Made by a program: the position numbers and the translations under genes
Shown: one piece after another, positions 1,571 through 11,395 of the stretch
Layout of the letters: every line of letters begins with the position of its first letter
How positions within the stretch are numbered: the stretch's first letter is position 1
Assembly (NCBI GenBank): GCA_019247135.1
Contig: JAFAPL010000371.1
Span: 1 to 11,395, forward strand
Direction: 5' to 3'
Source of the DNA: Chloroflexota bacterium
GTDB taxonomy: Bacteria > Chloroflexota > UBA6077 > CF-72
DNA: 11,395 bases
Notes under the pieces: model-generated
Told to the model about the DNA's origin: nothing
The model's input: only the letters and a program-made list of their open reading frames with translations
The model's database searches: none

Positions 1571-2121
1571 ATGACTGGGTCCTCGCTATGAGGGACTCTC
1601 GCCCGAGGAGGTCCGCGCCGTCATCGCCGCCGGCAACTGCGAGCGCGACCGGCTACTGCTGCGGGTACTGTGGGCGACGGGCGCTCGGATCTCGGAGGTG
1701 CTCGCCCTGCGCCCCAGGGATGTGCGTCGCGACAGCCTGGTGCTCCCCAATCGGAAGAACCCCAGTCAGCCCACCAAGCGCGTGTTCCTACCGGGCGCCG
1801 AGCTAGGGCTCACGGGTGAGCTCCTGCTGTGGGCCAAGGAGCAGGGCGTGGCCGACGACGAGCCCTTGTTCTTCTCGCGCAAACGTGACCGTTATGGTTC
1901 GCGACGGGCACTACAGCGAGGCCAAGCCTGGCTCATTGTGAAGGAGGCCTCAGAGCACGCCAACATCCGGGTCCTGGCGCTGCGCGCCTCAAAGCATGGT
2001 CCGGCTGGCGAAGCCGCGCCGGTGCACCCCCACCTGTTCCGACATGCACGTGTACGGCAGATCGTGCGCACGACACGCAACCTTCCCCTTGCCCAACGTC
2101 AGGCAGGCTGGAGCCGACTGC
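1571..2121 (+). pseudogene. Tyrosine recombinase catalytic domain, truncated (remnant A)
   Basis: The frame running through 1575-2121 encodes a stand-alone tyrosine recombinase (phage-integrase family) catalytic domain. An N-terminal LSPEEVRAVIAAG helix leads to LWATGARISEVLAL, which carries the first catalytic arginine (codon 1686). Near the end comes HPHLFRH (His codon 2031, Arg codon 2040), then AGWSRLQ, where a Trp stands in the third His/Trp position. Coding similarity stops right after this, so the nucleophilic tyrosine and the C-terminus are missing; the adjoining DNA is a Tn3 transposase piece on the other strand. The 5' end is also damaged: an ATG at 1571 begins MTGSSL and stops, while the good frame starts with no proper start codon just after a TGA at 1572, suggesting a frameshift near 1575-1587. 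Unlikely to make active enzyme. Confidence 0.8.
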
Positions 2122-2534
2122 AGATTTTCCAACAGCAGGCCTTCGCCACCAAAGAACAGCCATTTGGCGAAGCGGTGGTACGCCTCGACCTTGTTGGTGG
2201 TGGCGCTGATCTGCTCGAGCAGTTGGGCGCTGCTCAAGTACTCCAGCAGGAACGCAGTCCGAATGACGCGGCCGAGTTCAGCGAATGCCTGATACTGGCG
2301 GTTGCGTCGGCTATAGGTGCCCAGCTTCCTCAAGAGCAGTGCCGACGACACGGCGCCAGCTTTCACCGAGAGCACGACCTGCAGCAAGTCCTGCCAGTGG
2401 GTCTGAATCAACTCCCAGTCGACGGTGTCGGTGAACAGCGCGTCAATGTGCTGGTAGTGAACGTCCTTGGACGGACGGAAGAACGTCACATCTTTCCAGT
2501 TGCGGATGCGCGGCATGAGTTTGATGCCTAGCAA
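2122..2534 (-). pseudogene. tnpA: Internal fragment of a Tn3-family transposase (TnpA)
   Basis: On the minus strand an open stretch of about 135 codons matches an internal part of the C-terminal DDE region of Tn3-family transposases. It opens with LGIKLMPRIRNWKDVTF and contains LRKLGTYSRRNRQYQAFAELGRVIRTAFLLEY and NKVEAYHRFAKWLFFGGEG-like segments in the family order (read in parts). Upstream sequence, including the earlier catalytic region, and the C-terminal end are absent. The left boundary, about 2122-2140, is where similarity passes into remnant A; the right boundary, about 2531, passes into remnant B. No terminal inverted repeat borders the piece, so it is rearrangement debris and not a transposon. 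The overlapping region differs clearly from the transposase at the right edge of the window, so it comes from a different Tn3-family element. Confidence 0.8.
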
Positions 2535-3621: not shown

Positions 3622-6600
3622 TTAGCTCGTTGGCCAGACGTCGGCCACGTAGCGGTGGTTGGACGCGAGGTCAGCCAGCCATGCCTCGGCGGCCGCCGCG
3701 TCGCCACCAGCCTTGGCCTGGCGGATACTGGCGAAGGCTTTACGCACGTCCGGCGCCATGCGGCTGGCGTCGCCGCACACGTAGACCGCGGCGCCGCCCT
3801 CGAGCAGCTCCCAGACCGAGTCCGCCTGGCCTCGGATGGCGTCCTGCACATACATCCTGGGCTGGCCGTCCATACGCGAGAAGGCTGGTTCCACGCGCGC
3901 GATGCCGTCGGCCTGGAACTGGCGCAGCTCGTCGGCATAGAGGAAATCCTGGGCCGGGTTGCGGCAGCCAAAGAACAGCAGCGCCGCCCCCAACTCCTTG
4001 CCCTGTTGCTTCAAGGCGGCGCGCTCCTGGAGGAACCCTCTGTAGGGCGCCAGGCCGGTGCCCGCCCCCACCATGATGATAGGGGTGGTCGGGTCCTGGG
4101 GCAGGCGGAACGGCGTGCTCGGGCCCTTGACGAAGCCGTCAACCACCGCCCCGACCGGCTGCTCGGAGAGGTAGCAGGAGCACACGCCGCGGTAGCGCCC
4201 GCGGCCGGACCGGGCCGGCGCGTCGACCACCGCCACCGTGGCGCTGCAGGTGCCGGCATCGACCAGCGGCGAGGACGAGATGGAGTAGTAGCGCGGCTTG
4301 AGCGGCGGCAGGAACTCCAGGTACAGGTTGAACGGCAGCGCGCACGAGGGCGCGTCCTCGAGCAGGTCGATGACCGAGATGTGCCGGTCGAGCACCTCGC
4401 TCCGATAGCGAGCGGCGCTGTCGGGGTCGTCGCCGGCCAGCGCCAGCAGCCGGTCGTGTTCGGGCGGGCACTCGCTGTACGCGACCAGTACCTGGATCTG
4501 GGACCGCCTGGCCACGTCCTGCAGGTCGACGTAGGTCCCGAGCAGCGCGGCCAGGTCGACCGACTCGCCCACCGGCAGGAAGGTCTTGCTGGTGCTGTTA
4601 TTGGCGATGCGCACCCGCGTCTCGGGCGTCAGGTGGAAGCGCTCGGCGACCCGCCGCACCAGCGCCGGGTCGTTGCGCGGCAGCACGCCCAGGTAGTCGC
4701 CCACCTGGTAGCTGGCGCCCTCGGGCAGGCTGAACTCGATGTGCTTGGCCGAGCGCGGCGACGGGGTCGGCCCGTCTTTGGTGTGCAGCTCGTGGTTGGC
4801 CAGGAGCCGGAGCGGTCGGGCCGCGTACTCGGCCCCGAAGGGACTGACCACCGCGGCCTCAGCGACCACCTCGACCTCGTAACGGTGACCCTCGGCGGTG
4901 GCGCCGTCGCTGGGCTCCACGGGCGCACCCACGGCCGTGGCCAGCGCTCGCCAGAGCGGCGCGTACCAGGACCGGAACTGGCCGTCGAAGTCATCGCTGG
5001 TGTCGCCCTCGCCGCGCGGGTAGACGCGCTCCGCCCCGTGCGCCTCGAGCTGCTGGTCGATCAGGTTGGGGATGCGCTGGTAGGTCGACGGCCATTCGTG
5101 GCTGCCGCAGCCGAAGACGGTGAACTTAACGCCACGCAGCGCGTCAAGGGCCAAACTACTGCCGGTCAGCCAGTCGACGAAGCGGGCGGCGTTGTCCGGC
5201 GGAGCGCCGTTGTAGGAGGCCGAGCTGATGACCACGGCGCCCTGGGTAGGCAGCTTGCCGACGTAGTCGTCCAGCGATGCGACGTTGGCCGAGAAGCCGC
5301 GCGCCGTGCCCTCGGCCGCCATCTGGCGGGCCAGGTCCTCGGTCGTGCCCAGGTTGGAGCCGAACAGCACCAGCAGTGGCGTGGCATGCTGCACCAGCAG
5401 CCGATCCCTGGCGACCGGCGCCGGTTCTTCTTCCGCCACCGCGGGCGGGGTCTCCACTGTGGCCGGGGCCGGCGCGACGGTGACACGGTGCGTGCGCGGC
5501 CGGACCTGGATGAGGAAGTCGGCCGGCTTGACGGTCATCGTCTCGCGGATCTGGAGCTGGTAGTTGGCGAAGTCGACGAACTCGAACCGCTGCAGCAGCA
5601 TGCCCAGCACCAGTGTGGCTTCCTGAAGGGCGAACTGGCGCCCGATGCACGACCGCTGGCCGTGGCCGAACGGCTTGTAGACACTGGCCGGGCGGTCGTG
5701 CTCGGCCTCGCGCGTGAAGCGGTCCGGGTCGAACGCCTCCGGGCTCGGCCCCCAGACCGCAAGATCCCGATGGAGCATCGGAGTCAGGACGAGGATTTCC
5801 TGGCCCTTCTCGAGCTGGTACTTGCCGCCGATGACCGTGGTCTCGTACGGGTAACGGCTGAAGGCCGGCGCCGTCGGCCACAGGCGCAGCGTCTCCTTGA
5901 GCACCTGCAGCACGTACTGGAGCGCCCGCACCTGCTGGTAAGTGGGCAGCTCCGACGGGTCGGGTCCGAGAACACGGTCGACCTCGGCGTAGGCCCGCTC
6001 GAGCACCCCCGGGTTGCGCAGGAGGTAGTAGATGGCGAACGACAGCAGGCCGCTGGTGGTCTCGTGGCCGGCGACCAGGAAGGTGATGATCTGGTAGCGG
6101 ATGTTGACGTCGTCCAGACCCTCGCCGGTCTCCTTGTCGACGCCCCGCAGCATGTGGCCGAGCAGGTCGTTCGCCTCGGCCTGGTCCGGGCTGGCCTTGC
6201 GCTCGCGGATCAGCTTGTCAACGAGCCCGTACATGATGCTGGTGTCGTCCTGGAACTGGCGCCGGCGCCGGATCATAACGGCCGATTGGCCGGGCAGTCG
6301 GGTCTGCCGGGCGAGCGACTCGCTCAGCGCACGCATCATGGCCTCGACGAAGGGGTGCTGGTCCTCGCGGTAGAAGGAGTTGAAGCGGTAGCCGAAGCCG
6401 CACAGGCCGATGGTGTCCAGGGTCAGCCGGGTCATGTCGGCCGCGACGTCGACGGCCTCGCCGGGGTTGGTCCGCGCCCACTTCTCCGCCAGCTGCTCGG
6501 CGATGTCGACCATCTGCGGCATGTAGCCCTTCATGGCCGACTGGCTGAAGTTGGGCAGCAGGATGTTGTGTGCCTTCTGCCAATTCGGCTCGTATGTCCA

Positions 6601-6897
6601 GGCGGTGAACAGGCCGTCGCCGGCGATGGAGTCGTGGCCGTGGGCGCGCAGCTGCGGCAGCTTGTCGAAGCGCTCGTCGTCGCAGATCTCGTCCACCAGA
6701 CCGGGGCCGAAGACAACGACCAGCCTACGGTTGGGGACGACGAGCTGGTAGATGCCGGGCTGCTGGCGCGCCAGTTCCATCATCGACTGGACGGGTGTCC
6801 CGCCCAGCAGGTCGAACAGGTTGCCCACCACCGGGACGGCCCGGGGCTGGGGGATAGCTTCCAGCGTCGCGGCGCTGGACGCGCTCTCGGTCGTCAT
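3622..6897 (-). CDS. Self-sufficient cytochrome P450/NADPH-P450 reductase fusion (CYP102 family, P450-BM3-like)
   Basis: A 1,091-residue cytosolic enzyme that, by family knowledge, hydroxylates medium- to long-chain fatty acids or similar substrates using NADPH and O2 in one polypeptide. The heme domain (about 1-468) has AGHETTS with the O2-activating Thr280, the ExxR helix E335-R338, and FGHGQRSCIG with heme ligand Cys417. Active-site positions that matter in P450-BM3 are recognisable: Phe97 (BM3 Phe87), Arg57 (Arg47), but Val61 where BM3 has Tyr51. A Pro/Ala/Glu-rich linker (about 469-503) leads to the FMN flavodoxin domain (about 505-655: GSNLGTTE, SASYNGAPPDNA, FGCGSHEW with Trp602). The FAD domain follows (RYYSISSSP at 869-877, RGVCSCYL at 903-910), then the NADPH domain (GAGTGLAPYRGF at 944-955, CGDASRMAPDV) and a C-terminal Trp1088 that usually stacks on FAD. 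BM3 is 1,049 residues, so this is complete. Its ATG overlaps the preceding P450 stop in ATGA. Confidence 0.96.
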   Translation of the reverse strand: MTTESASSAATLEAIPQPRAVPVVGNLFDLLGGTPVQSMMELARQQPGIYQLVVPNRRLVVVFGPGLVDEICDDERFDKLPQLRAHGHDSIAGDGLFTAWTYEPNWQKAHNILLPNFSQSAMKGYMPQMVDIAEQLAEKWARTNPGEAVDVAADMTRLTLDTIGLCGFGYRFNSFYREDQHPFVEAMMRALSESLARQTRLPGQSAVMIRRRRQFQDDTSIMYGLVDKLIRERKASPDQAEANDLLGHMLRGVDKETGEGLDDVNIRYQIITFLVAGHETTSGLLSFAIYYLLRNPGVLERAYAEVDRVLGPDPSELPTYQQVRALQYVLQVLKETLRLWPTAPAFSRYPYETTVIGGKYQLEKGQEILVLTPMLHRDLAVWGPSPEAFDPDRFTREAEHDRPASVYKPFGHGQRSCIGRQFALQEATLVLGMLLQRFEFVDFANYQLQIRETMTVKPADFLIQVRPRTHRVTVAPAPATVETPPAVAEEEPAPVARDRLLVQHATPLLVLFGSNLGTTEDLARQMAAEGTARGFSANVASLDDYVGKLPTQGAVVISSASYNGAPPDNAARFVDWLTGSSLALDALRGVKFTVFGCGSHEWPSTYQRIPNLIDQQLEAHGAERVYPRGEGDTSDDFDGQFRSWYAPLWRALATAVGAPVEPSDGATAEGHRYEVEVVAEAAVVSPFGAEYAARPLRLLANHELHTKDGPTPSPRSAKHIEFSLPEGASYQVGDYLGVLPRNDPALVRRVAERFHLTPETRVRIANNSTSKTFLPVGESVDLAALLGTYVDLQDVARRSQIQVLVAYSECPPEHDRLLALAGDDPDSAARYRSEVLDRHISVIDLLEDAPSCALPFNLYLEFLPPLKPRYYSISSSPLVDAGTCSATVAVVDAPARSGRGRYRGVCSCYLSEQPVGAVVDGFVKGPSTPFRLPQDPTTPIIMVGAGTGLAPYRGFLQERAALKQQGKELGAALLFFGCRNPAQDFLYADELRQFQADGIARVEPAFSRMDGQPRMYVQDAIRGQADSVWELLEGGAAVYVCGDASRMAPDVRKAFASIRQAKAGGDAAAAEAWLADLASNHRYVADVWPTS

Positions 6898-8309
6898 CGG
6901 GCCGCCTGCCCAGTCCGCCGCGGGTGGACCTTCATTGTGAAACCCTCCGGCTTCTCGGTCAGCGTCTCGTGGATCTTCAGCTCGTAGTTGTTGTAGTCGA
7001 CCAGCTCGAAGCGCTGGAGGATCATGCCCAGCACCAGCGCTGCCTCCAGCATCGCGAACTGCCGACCGATACAGGCCCGCTGGCCGTTGCCGAACGGCTT
7101 GAAGGCGTTGGGTGGCAGCCCCCGCTCGTTCTCCTCGCTGAAGTGGTCCGGGTTGAACGCCTGGGCGTCGTCGCCCCAGACGCTCGGGTCGCGGTGCAGG
7201 CTACCGACCAGGATCGAGGCCCCTTCCGGCCGGGTGATGCGGTACTTGCCGCCGATGACCTCCGCGTCGGCGTGAGGCTGGAGGGTGAAGGCCGGCGCCG
7301 GCGGGTGGAGGCGCAGTGCCTCCTTCAGCACCTGGGTGATGTACCTGAGCTGGTGCATCTGCTGATACGTCGGCATCACGGTCGTGTCGGTGCCCAGCAC
7401 CTGGTCGACCTCGGCGTAGGCCTTTGCCAGGACGTCCGGGTGGTGCATCAGCAAGTACAGTGCGAACGACAGCAGGCCGCTGGTGGTCTCGTGGCCGGCG
7501 ATCAGGAAGGTGATGATCTGGTAGCGGATGTTAACGTCGTCCAGACCCTCGTTGGTCTCCTTGTCAACGCCGGTCAGCATGCGCGCCAGCAAGTCGATCT
7601 TGCCGTTCTCGCCCTTCGGCTGGGCGCGGCGCTCCTTGATGAGGGTGTCGACCATCTCGTCCATGTACTCGACGTCGGCGTCGAACTGGCGCCGCTCGCG
7701 CACGCTGATTTTGTCCTGCACCGGCAGGCGGTTGGCGCGCTGCATGGACTCGCTCAGGCAGCGGGTCATGGCCTCGACGAATGGGTGTGGCGCCTGGCGG
7801 TAGAAGGAGTTGAAGCGGTAGCCGAAGCCGCACAGGCCGATGGTGTCCAGCGTCAGCCGGGTCATGTCAGGCGTGACCTGAATGTCGTCGTCCGGGTTCA
7901 GACGCTGCCACTTCTTGACCAGCTGCTGAGCGATGTCGACCATCATCAGGAAGTAGTCGCGCATCGCCTGCTGACTGAACGCGGGCAGCAGAATGGCGTG
8001 CGCCTTGCGCCAGTTGGGCTCCTCGGTATAGGCGGTGAACAGCCCGTCGCCGGCGAATGCGCGCACTTGGGTGAGGCCGGCACCGACCTTTTTGTCGAAG
8101 CGCTGCGGGTCGCACAGCTCGTCGGCCAGCGCGAAGCCGGAGACGAACACCGCCTCACGGTTGAGGATGGTCAGCCGGAAGATCGGCCCGTAATCGCGCG
8201 CCAGGGCGTTGAGCGCCGCCACGGGGGCGCCCCGATCGACGTCAAACAGGTTGCCGACGACCGGCTTCGCCGGCGGCCGCGGGATCTCTTCCAATCGGAC
8301 ATCTACCAC
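6894..8309 (-). CDS. Stand-alone cytochrome P450, CYP102-like heme domain without reductase
   Basis: A 471-residue P450 that corresponds to the heme domain only of a CYP102 enzyme and stops where the BM3 linker would begin. All core features are present: AGHETTS with Thr275, ExxR at E330-R333, FGNGQRACIG with heme ligand Cys413, and the long TRLTLDTIGLCGFGYRFNSF stretch shared with the fusion. Phe91 matches BM3 Phe87, Arg51 matches Arg47, and Phe55 takes the Tyr51 place; RLHPPAPAF differs from RLWPTAPAF in the fusion. The GTG start at 8309 is chosen because an AGAGGAG ribosome site lies at 8316-8322, six bases upstream, and because the upstream frame is the overlapping membrane gene. It has no flavin domains, so it needs electrons from elsewhere; the adjacent fusion is the obvious candidate donor, by inference. 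Probably arose by duplication of the fusion's heme domain. Confidence 0.92.
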   Translation of the reverse strand: MVDVRLEEIPRPPAKPVVGNLFDVDRGAPVAALNALARDYGPIFRLTILNREAVFVSGFALADELCDPQRFDKKVGAGLTQVRAFAGDGLFTAYTEEPNWRKAHAILLPAFSQQAMRDYFLMMVDIAQQLVKKWQRLNPDDDIQVTPDMTRLTLDTIGLCGFGYRFNSFYRQAPHPFVEAMTRCLSESMQRANRLPVQDKISVRERRQFDADVEYMDEMVDTLIKERRAQPKGENGKIDLLARMLTGVDKETNEGLDDVNIRYQIITFLIAGHETTSGLLSFALYLLMHHPDVLAKAYAEVDQVLGTDTTVMPTYQQMHQLRYITQVLKEALRLHPPAPAFTLQPHADAEVIGGKYRITRPEGASILVGSLHRDPSVWGDDAQAFNPDHFSEENERGLPPNAFKPFGNGQRACIGRQFAMLEAALVLGMILQRFELVDYNNYELKIHETLTEKPEGFTMKVHPRRTGQAAR

Positions 8310-8806
8310 GCCAGGCTCCTCTTGCGACTTTGATACGCCCGATAAGTCGCGAGCGCGTTCGCGACCACCATGCCGACGCCGAACGCCAGCAGGGCCGACG
8401 TGGCCAGGCCAGCGATGGACGGGTCGGGGTTGCTCCGCCCGACGACTTGCCGCACCACCACGCGGCCGGCGAACACCACCAACCACAGCATGACGCCCAG
8501 CTGCGTGTTCTGCACCAGCAGCTTGGCGGCGTCCGTGTCCACCCGGTGCACGTCGAACTGCGTACCGCGGACGAAGCCGACCAGCAGCCCGAGCAGCAGA
8601 CCGACCCCTATCCAGCCCCAGGCGCCAAGGTCGCCGGGCGTGCTGCGCACCAGCGTGACGGCCGTGAGCAGCACCAGGACCAGCGGCACCAACCACAGCC
8701 GGCGCACCGACACCCGCCGCTGACGCATCTGCATCAGCAGCAACACGCCCACGAGAAGCAGACCAGCGGCGTCGATCAGCGGGTTGCTCAGGTCAGCGAT
8801 CCTCAT
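8303..8806 (-). CDS. Small four-helix membrane protein, DUF1453/CcdC-like
   Basis: A 167-residue polytopic inner-membrane protein. Hydrophobic segments lie at about residues 8-26, 37-53, 63-79 and 100-118, with a fifth weaker one at 131-151; basic loops (MRQRRVSVRR at 27-36) fit the positive-inside rule. The pattern LLGLLVGFVRGTQFDVHRVD followed by LGVMLWLVVFAGR resembles the DUF1453 (CcdC-like) proteins often found alone or near redox or cell-envelope genes; I match it by appearance only and the biochemical role is unknown. The ATG at 8806 overlaps the amylase stop in ATGA with a GAGG ribosome site four bases upstream, and its TAG overlaps the next GTG by seven bases, so translation is probably coupled on both sides. 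An alternative is an unrelated small membrane protein. Confidence 0.8.
   Translation of the reverse strand: MRIADLSNPLIDAAGLLLVGVLLLMQMRQRRVSVRRLWLVPLVLVLLTAVTLVRSTPGDLGAWGWIGVGLLLGLLVGFVRGTQFDVHRVDTDAAKLLVQNTQLGVMLWLVVFAGRVVVRQVVGRSNPDPSIAGLATSALLAFGVGMVVANALATYRAYQSRKRSLAW
8316..8322 (-). promoter_or_regulatory. Ribosome binding site fixing the GTG start of the stand-alone P450
   Basis: AGAGGAG on the minus strand, six bases before the GTG at 8309 and inside the last codons of the membrane protein gene. It supports the short start over the much longer open frame that runs through the upstream gene in another phase. Confidence 0.7.
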
Positions 8807-10629
8807 GGGACCTCGCCCGATCGCGCCACGAAGGCCCCCAGCCGGCCGAGCGTCAGGGTCGCGCCCCCGCCGGCCCGGACGGCCAGTCGGGCGGCGGCAT
8901 TCGTCTCGCCGGTTCGTGCCAGGACCCCCGTGTAGGCGCCCGGCGGAAGATCGACCGGCGTCGTCAGCTCGACCGTCCGGGCATCGCCACGGTTGACGGC
9001 GACTAGCACCGTGTCGGCCCCGGACCGACGCTCGAACACGAGCACGTCCGCGTCGGTGTACACACCTTGGTAGGTGCCCTGCCAGACCGCCGCGCTCGAC
9101 TGCCTCAGACGCGCTAGCGCCTGGATGATTTCGAAGGCCGGCGTCGTCTCGCTCCAGGCGGTCATGCCCAGCCGGTTGTAGGGGTCGTCGTTGTCCGAGT
9201 TGATGTATGTCGGCGGCGTGTCGTGGCCCTCGTCGTAGCGGGCCAGGTACTGCTCGTCGCCGTAGAAGATGATCGGGATGCCGCGCACGGTCATCAGCAG
9301 CACCGTGGCCAGATCCAGCCGCCGTTCGCGCTCCGTCTCGCTCTGGATGCCCAGCTTCTGCAGGCGCACGAGCGTCCGCATCTGGTCGTGGTTGTCGATG
9401 AAGGTGCCCTGCCAGTCGTCGCGACCGTCGAACGCCGTGGTCCGCTGCTGGAGCAAGGCGTCCAGGTCGGCGCCACTGGTCGCCTGCGCCGGCTCCTCGT
9501 AGCTGCCGCCGATAAAACGGTTCAAGGCCAAGGCGAGCTGGAAGTCGAGGATGTTGGTGCCATACACGTCGTAGTGGTTGGCGAAGGCGAGCGACCGGTC
9601 GTCTCCGACCCCGCCGTTCGACCACTCGCCCACGAAGTAGGGCGCCTCTCGCCCCTCGGCGGCGGTGTGGTCCGTCAGCTCGTGGGTGAACCGGGCGACG
9701 AACTCCGGGAACGGGAACTTGATCGCATCCAGACGAAAGTCGTCCACGCCGTTGTCCAGCCACAGCTTGCCGGCCGCGATCAGGTACGCGGCCATCGTGG
9801 GATTGCGCTGGTCGTAGCCACTGAGATCGGCGAGCAGGCAGTGGTGGAGCTGCCAATCGTCCCACTCGGAATCCGCCACCTTCTGGGCTGCCTGGCAGGC
9901 GGCGGTGTTCTGGTAATGTTTGTAGAAGCGCCTGCCCGTCGCCGGATCGTAATCGTGCGCATAGCTACGGATGAACGGGACGCTCGGTCCATCGAGCTGA
10001 TCGAGCTGGCCATACGCATGGTTGTCGTTCGGGTTCGAGTGGTTGAGAGTGATGTCCTGGATGTAGCGCATGCCGCGGGCGTGCAGGGCCTGGCTGAGCT
10101 GGCTGACGTCGGCCCAGGTGCCAAAGTGCGGGTTGACAGCGTCGTAGTTCTGCACCCAATAGCCGTGGTAACTCGTCCCGTAGCCGGTCCCGCCCTCGTA
10201 GGCGGCGACGTTCTCCATGAGCGGCGTCACCCACACCGCCGACGCGCCCAGGCGCTGCACGTAGTCCAGCTTGTCGATGATGCCTTGGACATCGCCGCCC
10301 CAGTAGCGGCGCCATTGGGCCTCATCCGGACACGTCTGCTCGAAGCAGTTGACGTCGTTGGTGGCGTCGGGATGGTCCGGATCGACGTAGGGCTCCAAGG
10401 GCTCGTGCGCGTGGAAACGGTCAGCAACCAGGAAATAGATCGTTCGCGAGCGGTAGTCGGGCGCCGGCTGCGCCGCGGCCGTCCCGCCAAGCCCGGACGG
10501 CACTAGCACCAGGGCCGCGAGGCCGAGCAGGATAATCGGCGTCAGCAACTGGCGCACGAGCGCGATTTGGTGCTCCATGGCCTCGGAGTAACGGGACGGA
10601 TTGGGCTCGGTAGTTACGTGGTTCGGCAT
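8803..10629 (-). CDS. Secreted alpha-amylase-family glycoside hydrolase (GH13)
   Basis: Predicted to hydrolyse or transfer alpha-1,4-glucans outside the cell. Positions count from the internal ATG at 10578, which gives 591 residues; the ATG at 10629 adds 17. MEHQIALVRQ then LLTPIILLGLAALVLVP form a signal peptide with a likely cut after Ala36. GH13 regions follow in order: DITLNH at 175-180; FRLDAIKF with nucleophile Asp284; FVGEWS with acid/base Glu318; TFIDNHD with Asp398. An early RRYWGGDVQGI and YHGYW recall cyclodextrin glucanotransferase/maltogenic amylase types (GH13_2-like), but there is no C-terminal starch-binding domain. Cys78/Cys83 and Cys228/Cys247 may form disulphides, fitting export. 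A small beta domain closes the protein (about 500-590). The stop overlaps the next ATG. Neither start has a clear ribosome site, and the frame stays open to 10794, so the N-terminus is uncertain. It is the first gene of the block. Confidence 0.9.
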   Translation of the reverse strand: MPNHVTTEPNPSRYSEAMEHQIALVRQLLTPIILLGLAALVLVPSGLGGTAAAQPAPDYRSRTIYFLVADRFHAHEPLEPYVDPDHPDATNDVNCFEQTCPDEAQWRRYWGGDVQGIIDKLDYVQRLGASAVWVTPLMENVAAYEGGTGYGTSYHGYWVQNYDAVNPHFGTWADVSQLSQALHARGMRYIQDITLNHSNPNDNHAYGQLDQLDGPSVPFIRSYAHDYDPATGRRFYKHYQNTAACQAAQKVADSEWDDWQLHHCLLADLSGYDQRNPTMAAYLIAAGKLWLDNGVDDFRLDAIKFPFPEFVARFTHELTDHTAAEGREAPYFVGEWSNGGVGDDRSLAFANHYDVYGTNILDFQLALALNRFIGGSYEEPAQATSGADLDALLQQRTTAFDGRDDWQGTFIDNHDQMRTLVRLQKLGIQSETERERRLDLATVLLMTVRGIPIIFYGDEQYLARYDEGHDTPPTYINSDNDDPYNRLGMTAWSETTPAFEIIQALARLRQSSAAVWQGTYQGVYTDADVLVFERRSGADTVLVAVNRGDARTVELTTPVDLPPGAYTGVLARTGETNAAARLAVRAGGGATLTLGRLGAFVARSGEVP

Positions 10630-10992
10630 CGGCACTTTTTGGTAGCGGCAGTCTAGAGCCAGGCGTCGCCAGGGGCCAGAGGCGTGGTCACTGAATCCAA
10701 TGGCACCCAGGTCGGCCGCTGCTGCGTGTGGGAGATGAACAACGAAGCCGAGGCCGAGCACTGTGTCGGTCGCGAGCTCTTGTCCATATGTCATGGTTCA
10801 CGCGGTACTTGGCCAGGCCGCGCGCATCCGAGCGCTTCGACCACACCGACATCCCTCCCAATGTTCAGCCCGCACGGCGAGTCAGCCGGAAGCCCGCACG
10901 CTCGGTCGACAGCCGGTCGACAGCAAGTCAGCAGTTCTGGGGATACGCTCGCCGATTCGGTGCGAGACGGTGTTGAACGCGACGTAGTGCAT
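10630..10992. other. Upstream region of the operon, between amylase gene and transposon end
   Basis: About 360 bp with no convincing gene. The amylase frame stays open to an ATG at 10794, but those 55 extra codons (GQELATDTVLGLG and on) precede the signal peptide and would be abnormal for a secreted protein. The operon promoter should lie here, yet I see no sigma-70-like pair I would defend. An 11-bp tandem repeat lies at 10903-10924. The segment ends at the Tn3-type inverted repeat, so promoter elements further out could have been displaced by the insertion. Confidence 0.45.
10903..10924. repeat. Perfect 11-bp tandem direct repeat (two copies)
   Basis: CGGTCGACAGC occurs twice head to tail, at 10903-10913 and 10914-10924, about 280 bp upstream of the amylase start and 68 bp from the transposon end. 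Each copy holds the palindrome GTCGAC, so the pair could serve as a binding site, or could be replication slippage. Confidence 0.6.
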
Positions 10993-11030: not shown

Positions 11031-11395
11031 AGTCGTTGGCATCGGGCGACGTAACGAGCAGGTCCTCCTCGTCGAGCTTGGCGGGATCGCGCAGGGGTCG
11101 GAACTCACCGCGGGCGACGGTCTCCGGCAGCGAGAAGTGGTAGCGGCCCAGGGACGTTGATATGGTTGGTGCCCAGGGGTGAGAGGCGCGCGACGTCCTC
11201 GTCATTGACAGTACCGCCCTGGGCGCGCACTTGGGTCAGGGCGCGGTCCATGTACAGCGTCGTCCAGAGGATCAGCACGTTGACCACCAGGCCCAAGGCC
11301 CCGAGCTGATCCTCGATTCCCTCGCGATAGGGCTGGCGGAGCTCGCCTTTGCGGCCGTGGAAGACGTGCCGAGCCACTTTGTGGCGGTCCTCATG
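11026..11395 (-). pseudogene. tnpA: C-terminal end of a Tn3-family transposase (TnpA), frameshifted, runs off the window
   Basis: The minus strand is open from the right edge: HEDRHKVARHVFHGRKGELR, YREGIEDQLGALGLVVNVL, and DEDVARLSPLGTNHIN are the hallmark C-terminal segments of Tn3-family TnpA. After HIN the frame breaks at 11151-11153, where GTCCCTGG has one base more than expected (GTC CTG G). In the next frame the protein resumes as LGRYHFSLPETVARG and ends LLVTSPDANDF with TGA at 11026-11028. The shift removes only the last 43 or so residues from the true frame and replaces them with 11 unrelated ones, so activity is doubtful unless the extra C is a sequencing error. TnpA catalyses replicative, cointegrate-forming transposition. 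Adjacent sequence at 10993 is the terminal repeat. Confidence 0.85.

Follow-up and report, generated by a model that had tools for sequence, protein, structure and literature searches.

A CYP102-like P450 without a reductase, encoded beside a CYP102 fusion that probably reduces it

We analyzed an 11,395-nucleotide stretch of DNA from a Chloroflexota bacterium (the window; assembly GCA_019247135.1, contig JAFAPL010000371.1). It contains a gene for a solo CYP102-like cytochrome P450 of 471 residues without reductase domains (6894..8309, minus strand, GTG start at 8309 and stop at 6894). The next gene encodes a 1,091-residue CYP102-type fusion of a P450 with flavin mononucleotide (FMN; flavodoxin), flavin adenine dinucleotide (FAD), and NADPH-binding domains (3622..6897, minus strand). 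The same pair recurs in a related soil bacterium. This recurrence suggests that the solo P450 borrows electrons from the fusion, and its reduction in trans by its neighbor is the explanation that we consider probable. The pair is rare. We know it here from the window, one metagenome-assembled genome (MAG), and metagenome proteins.

A preliminary description of this DNA had located and described the solo and fusion genes correctly, as judged from reading frames, Pfam domains, and a heme-domain alignment. The two genes end a run of four packed genes on the minus strand (amylase-like, DUF1453, solo P450, and fusion), in which every stop overlaps the following start. The ATGA overlap between the fusion start and the solo stop (6894..6897, minus strand) had already been pointed out, and we confirmed it at 6897-6894. 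Two more overlaps go beyond that account. The solo start overlaps the stop of the DUF1453 gene in the sequence GTGGTAG (8303..8309, minus strand), and the DUF1453 start overlaps the amylase-like gene by ATGA. A good ribosome site, GAGGAG, lies just before the GTG of the solo gene.

The solo protein matched only the Pfam p450 family (E value of 1.8e-87), whereas the fusion matched p450, Flavodoxin_1, FAD_binding_1, and NAD_binding_1. Their heme domains are identical at 274 of 464 positions (59%), which bears out the homology that had been proposed. The solo has 7 residues beyond the last aligned position (464), and the fusion has approximately 35 to 40 more residues before its flavodoxin domain. 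This agrees with the earlier claim that the solo ends where the linker would begin. Compared with P450-BM3 (CYP102A1), the solo heme domain is identical at 242 of 450 aligned positions (54%), and that of the fusion is 55% identical. By the nomenclature rule, identity to CYP102A1 above 40% places a protein in the CYP102 family, and the solo lies within it. It also has the signatures of a P450, namely the heme cysteine, the ExxR motif, and the Glu-Thr pair of the I helix. It does not have the FMN, FAD, and NADPH domains in one chain that define a self-sufficient CYP102 fusion, whereas the neighboring fusion does. Thus, the solo is a reductase-less CYP102, a CYP102 heme protein without a fused reductase.

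The preliminary description had proposed a search for the pair in other genomes and held that confinement to this contig would count against it. The pair is not confined to this contig. We scanned species genomes with two peptide patterns and kept the best 80 of 481 relatives. Among these 80 loci, 79 had fusions only (one split into two frames and two cut by the contig end), and one, L001, also had a solo P450 gene. L001 is a contig of a Chloroflexota MAG (G001), the related soil bacterium mentioned above. It encodes a solo P450 (9974-11419) and then a fusion (11416-14652), which are 70% and 73% identical to their counterparts in the window. The gene order and overlaps are also those of the window, with ATGGTAG at the DUF1453 stop and solo start and GTGA at the solo stop and fusion start. 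Recurrence of the pair and of both overlaps indicates that the arrangement is not due to chance.

Proteins related to the solo were also searched, at lengths of 0.55 to 1.75 times that of the solo. Solo-sized relatives top the best 120 of the 4578 matches, with P0002-P0004 at 74 to 84% identity and P0006-P0024 at 66 to 72%. The L001 fusion is near-identical to P0125 in its heme domain. Linkage between these proteins was judged from contigs of the same size, which is inference rather than something read from sequence. On that basis, there are two further solo and fusion pairs (P0004/P0128 on 8564 bp and P0008/P0123 on 459031 bp). A solo and a DUF1453 protein share contig sizes of 3797, 9629, and 15691 bp, and a fusion and a DUF1453 protein share a size of 30314 bp. 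The 110 other fusion contigs, from the best 120 fusions, gave no size coincidences with solo or DUF1453 contigs. Conserved genomic pairing of the putative client and reductase was found by sequence in the window and L001, with readable neighborhoods for only a minority of the solos in the clade described below.

The rarity of the pair was evident from genome surveys. These used strict E-value cut-offs, scored few candidates per genome in the large sets, and drew on sets that overlap. In the class of the MAG, a solo was found in 1 of 29 genomes, which was G001 itself. A sample of 400 genomes from the phylum included 22 with a match, and 201 relatives included 10; in each set, the solo frame was found in G001 alone. 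None of 47 genomes in the class of G265 and G139 had a solo, and the matches in 11 of them were all frames of at least 1,080 residues. L011, which carries a fusion of the sister group, had no frame of at least 80 residues within 1149 bases upstream. Viral contigs gave 55 pattern matches, none of which was a relative.

A tree of both kinds of heme domain had been suggested as a check. Ours was a quick IQ-TREE analysis of 99 of 364 candidate heme domains, with support from the Shimodaira-Hasegawa-like approximate likelihood ratio test (SH-aLRT) only. The internally repeated P0005 was left out, and CYP102B1 and CYP102H1 were outside the tree. Its 35 solo-labeled rows were chosen by length from the best 120 of the 4578 matches, plus the window and L001. 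The solos proved to have their own clade among the fusions, containing 31 of these 35 rows (SH-aLRT of 97). It is made up of 24 rows that include the window and L001 (support of 100), which we refer to as solo-I, and 7 further solos (98). Solo-I has 23 distinct sequences because the L001 solo and P0013 are identical. The seven others form a second subclade, sister to that of the window (P0025-P0027, P0031, P0038, P0039, and P0054; 471 to 479 residues). The partner fusions form a 10-row clade (100) within a 38-row fusion group (97).

Where the solo clade attaches to its neighbors, the tree lacks resolution, and by itself it cannot orient the change. Since the solo clade is surrounded by fusions, the simplest history is that one old paralogue lost its reductase. 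This suggests that the solo descends from an old CYP102 fusion paralogue after reductase loss, a direction that we infer. A recent tandem duplication, with the 24 solos and 10 partner fusions as one clade, was disfavored, although marginally (approximately unbiased [AU] test, P = 0.039), and that group was named after the tree had been seen. The remaining solo-sized rows (P0042, P0049, P0053, and P0080) fall among fusions and outside the clade count. The source of P0049 names it partial, and P0042 and P0053 appear truncated, with ends that resemble the linker. P0080 (46064-bp contig) groups with a Binataceae fusion and is possibly an independent case of reductase loss.

Several features bear on whether the solo gene encodes a working P450. 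Between the window and L001, its first, second, and third codon positions differ at 24, 18, and 42%. The corresponding values for the fusion are 16, 13, and 38% in the heme domain and 20, 17, and 46% in the reductase. Third positions of the solo gene are approximately twice as divergent as first and second positions, the pattern expected under purifying selection. All 24 solo-I rows retain the equivalents of BM3 residues C400, E320, R323, E267, F87, W96, and H100, and 23 of them retain that of T268. We also compared 34 proximal sites, which face the reductase and were picked in part from passages of PMC11900375. The residue comparison had 24 plus 7 solo rows and 10 plus 18 fusion rows, and the entropy comparison was of 24 with 28. 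Mean entropy at the proximal sites was 0.61 in the 24 solos and 0.62 in the 28 fusions. Compared with the other 416 sites, there was no significant relaxation of the proximal sites in solos (P = 0.60). Therefore, there is no sign of released constraint on the reductase-facing side of the solo, which is permissive evidence.

Candidate electron donors were sought in the MAG assembly (8.3 Mb, of unstated completeness). It contained one Flavodoxin_1 match, and this was in the partner fusion. There was no Fer4_13 match in the assembly and one borderline Fer4_15 match, in a 678-residue frame. Neither the operon of the window nor that of L001 showed a ferredoxin or reductase gene, and none was seen in three scanned genes that lie downstream of the fusion in L001. 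Those three resemble an isomerase, a short-chain dehydrogenase, and a methionine-synthase-like protein and are not redox partners.

These observations fit a mechanism in which the stand-alone P450, derived from a fusion paralogue that had lost its reductase, was retained in an operon with a full fusion and the DUF1453 protein. Coupled translation would make both P450s together. NADPH would reduce the FMN domain of the fusion via its FAD domain, and the FMN domain might then dock on the proximal face of the solo and pass it electrons in trans. Within the fusion's own dimer, this FMN domain serves the heme domains in a comparable way. A single reductase would thus serve two kinds of P450 active site, which may differ in their substrates.

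The preliminary description had invoked transfer between chains in BM3, and a passage of PMC7261786 does report that the FMN domain of one monomer passes electrons to the other monomer's heme. It had gone on to propose a mixed dimer in which the solo uses the fusion's reductase. Reductase sharing agrees with the operon arrangement, with the retention of catalytic and proximal residues, and with the presence of just one Flavodoxin_1 match in the MAG. A stable dimer is the less convincing part, and transient docking of the solo and fusion seems likelier. Passages of PMC7261786 and PMC11900375 assign the dimer interface of CYP102A1 to its reductase, and according to part of PMC9510131, isolated CYP102A1 heme domains did not dimerize by size exclusion. 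The same part of PMC9510131 describes sedimentation of proteolyzed CYP102A1, which suggested binding between a full-length monomer and a heme domain on its own, and AlphaFold runs, all 10 of which paired isolated heme domains. Heme-heme contact also appears in homodimer models (in an excerpt of PMC8874714) and by cryo-electron microscopy (in a passage of PMC11900375). Our own AlphaFold model of the solo, made with 26 sequences, was poor (mean predicted local distance difference test score of 59.8) and was not used. In a more far-reaching version of reduction in trans, the solo would be an obligate client of a P450 that doubles as its reductase, possibly in an asymmetric hetero-complex, with the DUF1453 protein holding both at the membrane. 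We consider this version rather doubtful.

Several observations weigh against reduction by the fusion, and some of them favor a donor encoded elsewhere. The solo might instead receive electrons from a ferredoxin and ferredoxin reductase encoded elsewhere in the genome and share only an operon and a pathway with the fusion. CYP102B1 is driven by separate ferredoxin partners. The MAG has 16 Fer2 matches, in frames of 159 to 1,002 residues, and 19 P450 matches (some split in two), so the remaining P450s there must have other donors. Plasmids provide examples of solos that stand alone. Ten plasmid neighborhoods comprised five fusions (L117-L120 and L124), one 644-residue frame (L121), one solo with a separate reductase (L116), and three solos (L115, L122, and L123). 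No fusion or reductase was seen beside the CYP102-like solos L122 and L123 of Rhodococcus, as judged from annotation, or beside L115 of Streptomyces, which is unannotated and has unscanned neighbors. Therefore, solo CYP102s can live without a neighboring diflavin donor. Other reductase-less CYP102s, CYP102B1 and CYP102H1, also exist (according to part of PMC9728198). However, the operon genes and the three scanned genes downstream in L001 offer no such ferredoxin, the MAG assembly has no Fer4_13 and only the borderline Fer4_15 match, and retention of the solo beside a diflavin fusion would be a coincidence. We regard a separate ferredoxin as rather unlikely.

Further points against reduction by the fusion come from the relatives. 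Three solos on contigs of 0.5 to 1.4 Mb (P0015, P0017, and P0023) have no fusion on a contig of the same size among the best 120 fusions listed. The L001 fusion is likewise missing from that list under its own contig size, so the list cannot settle these three cases. The identities of four solos and of four fusions correlate weakly (r = 0.22, 6 values), and co-divergence of solos and fusions thus found no support over the four pairs. The unrelaxed proximal sites may simply reflect a common structure, and only part of the site list came from PMC11900375. P0014 (15691-bp contig, with a DUF1453 protein on a contig of the same size) is a solo that runs into approximately 19 residues like the C terminus of the fusion reductase. 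This may represent an in-frame deletion with loss of the fusion in one genome, or a misassembly.

P0014 also bears on whether the split itself is an artifact, arising from a frameshift, a misassembly, or a decaying tandem duplicate, because it joins a solo to a reductase end. There are transposase fragments and a weak integrase-like match around the operon as well (see below). However, the same arrangement is present in another assembly at 70% identity, the 24-row solo clade has a support of 100, and the codon positions of the solo gene are patterned by constraint. The AU test also argues against this, within the limits stated for it. An artifact is already contradicted by these results and is extremely improbable. 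A solo that is mainly a structural or regulatory partner, through heme-domain contact in a dimer, or that is driven by peroxide, is improbable too, although less so. Neither role would involve NADPH-driven turnover. The solo has no reductase of its own, and the heme-heme contacts in AlphaFold (PMC9510131) and cryo-electron microscopy (PMC11900375) models of CYP102A1, in the passages cited above, are compatible with such a role. However, every one of the 24 solo-I rows has the cysteine and ExxR, and 23 have the full Glu-Thr pair, whereas peroxygenases are described in a passage of PMC10988616 as having no acid-alcohol pair. The size exclusion result for isolated heme domains (PMC9510131, in part) also argues against a structural role. 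Reduction in trans by the fusion remains the explanation that we favor.

Reductase-less CYP102s are already known, and what appears new here is the pairing with a CYP102 fusion and a DUF1453 protein. We found no description of a solo CYP102 paired with a CYP102 fusion in search listings and passages of the open-access literature (only part of the searching was aimed near this question, and most subscription journals are outside it). The solo resembles CYP102A1 and other CYP102A fusions in its heme domain (54% identical) and kept catalytic residues, and its partner is a full fusion of that kind. However, BM3 is a single chain, whereas a second, reductase-less heme protein is encoded here just before the fusion. 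Streptomyces coelicolor CYP102B1 and Nocardia farcinica CYP102H1 are described in part of PMC9728198 as CYP102s without a fused reductase. By that description, they are like the solo in being CYP102-series P450s without a fused reductase, but no tie to a neighboring CYP102 fusion was seen for either. Rhodococcus gordoniae plasmid pDND3A (L116, 4022-7116) has a gene for a CYP102-like P450 and, adjacent to it, one for a separate diflavin reductase, so that the CYP102 architecture is naturally divided between two genes. Like the solo, this P450 stands alone beside a diflavin reductase, but that reductase has no P450 of its own, and the P450 is 44% identical to the window solo.

Microsomal P450s share one cytochrome P450 reductase, so a single diflavin reductase serves several P450s in trans. 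The working model for the window is similar in that respect. However, the reductase here is fused to a P450, and its client is encoded in the same operon. Mutant heterodimers, models, and proteolyzed mixtures have been used to argue whether electrons pass within a CYP102 chain, between chains, or both. With a natural pair in which one partner has no reductase, transfer in trans could be measured on wild-type proteins. If the solo is reduced by the fusion, then other apparent orphan P450s may have donors inside neighboring fusions, and fusions could be electron sources for other P450s. If it is an obligate client, then a self-sufficient P450 would have come to power two active sites, the second with a substrate range of its own.

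The DUF1453 gene (PF07301, CcdC-like; 8303..8806, minus strand) encodes a 167-residue membrane protein and lies directly upstream of the solo P450 gene. It precedes the solo in both sequenced loci, and the L001 copy (9477-9980) is 56% identical. The label comes from precomputed Pfam annotation, and direct Pfam scans gave no match above the curated cut-off. A search with the DUF1453 protein returned 14 proteins. The MAG has a paralogue (G001:C167; L154, 5796-6317) whose neighbors are sulfatase, sulfate permease, and sulfatase-modifying-factor genes, and weaker matches occurred in 8 of 400 other genomes. Therefore, DUF1453 also occurs apart from the P450s, and we rejected an exclusive link between it and the pair.

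The alpha-amylase-like gene (8803..10794, minus strand; 663 residues) overlaps the start of the DUF1453 gene at 8806-8803. In L001, positions 9259-9342, just upstream of the DUF1453 gene, encode a 28-residue remnant that matches residues 466-493 of the window amylase. An amylase gene may have stood upstream in L001 and decayed, and the ancestral order may have included all four genes.

Rfam and tRNA scans of the window found nothing. Tn3-type transposase fragments in the same orientation (11105-11395 and 1989-2534, minus strand) flank the amylase-DUF1453-P450 operon, and an integrase-like fragment (1698-2531, plus strand) scored below the Pfam cut-off. The operon may have moved as a block. Two neighboring plus-strand frames without a Pfam match (53-304 and 424-1239) resemble each other in the C-terminal region (YVVGG.QGR.S.D....VHP..PSAPA) and have the appearance of tandem paralogues.

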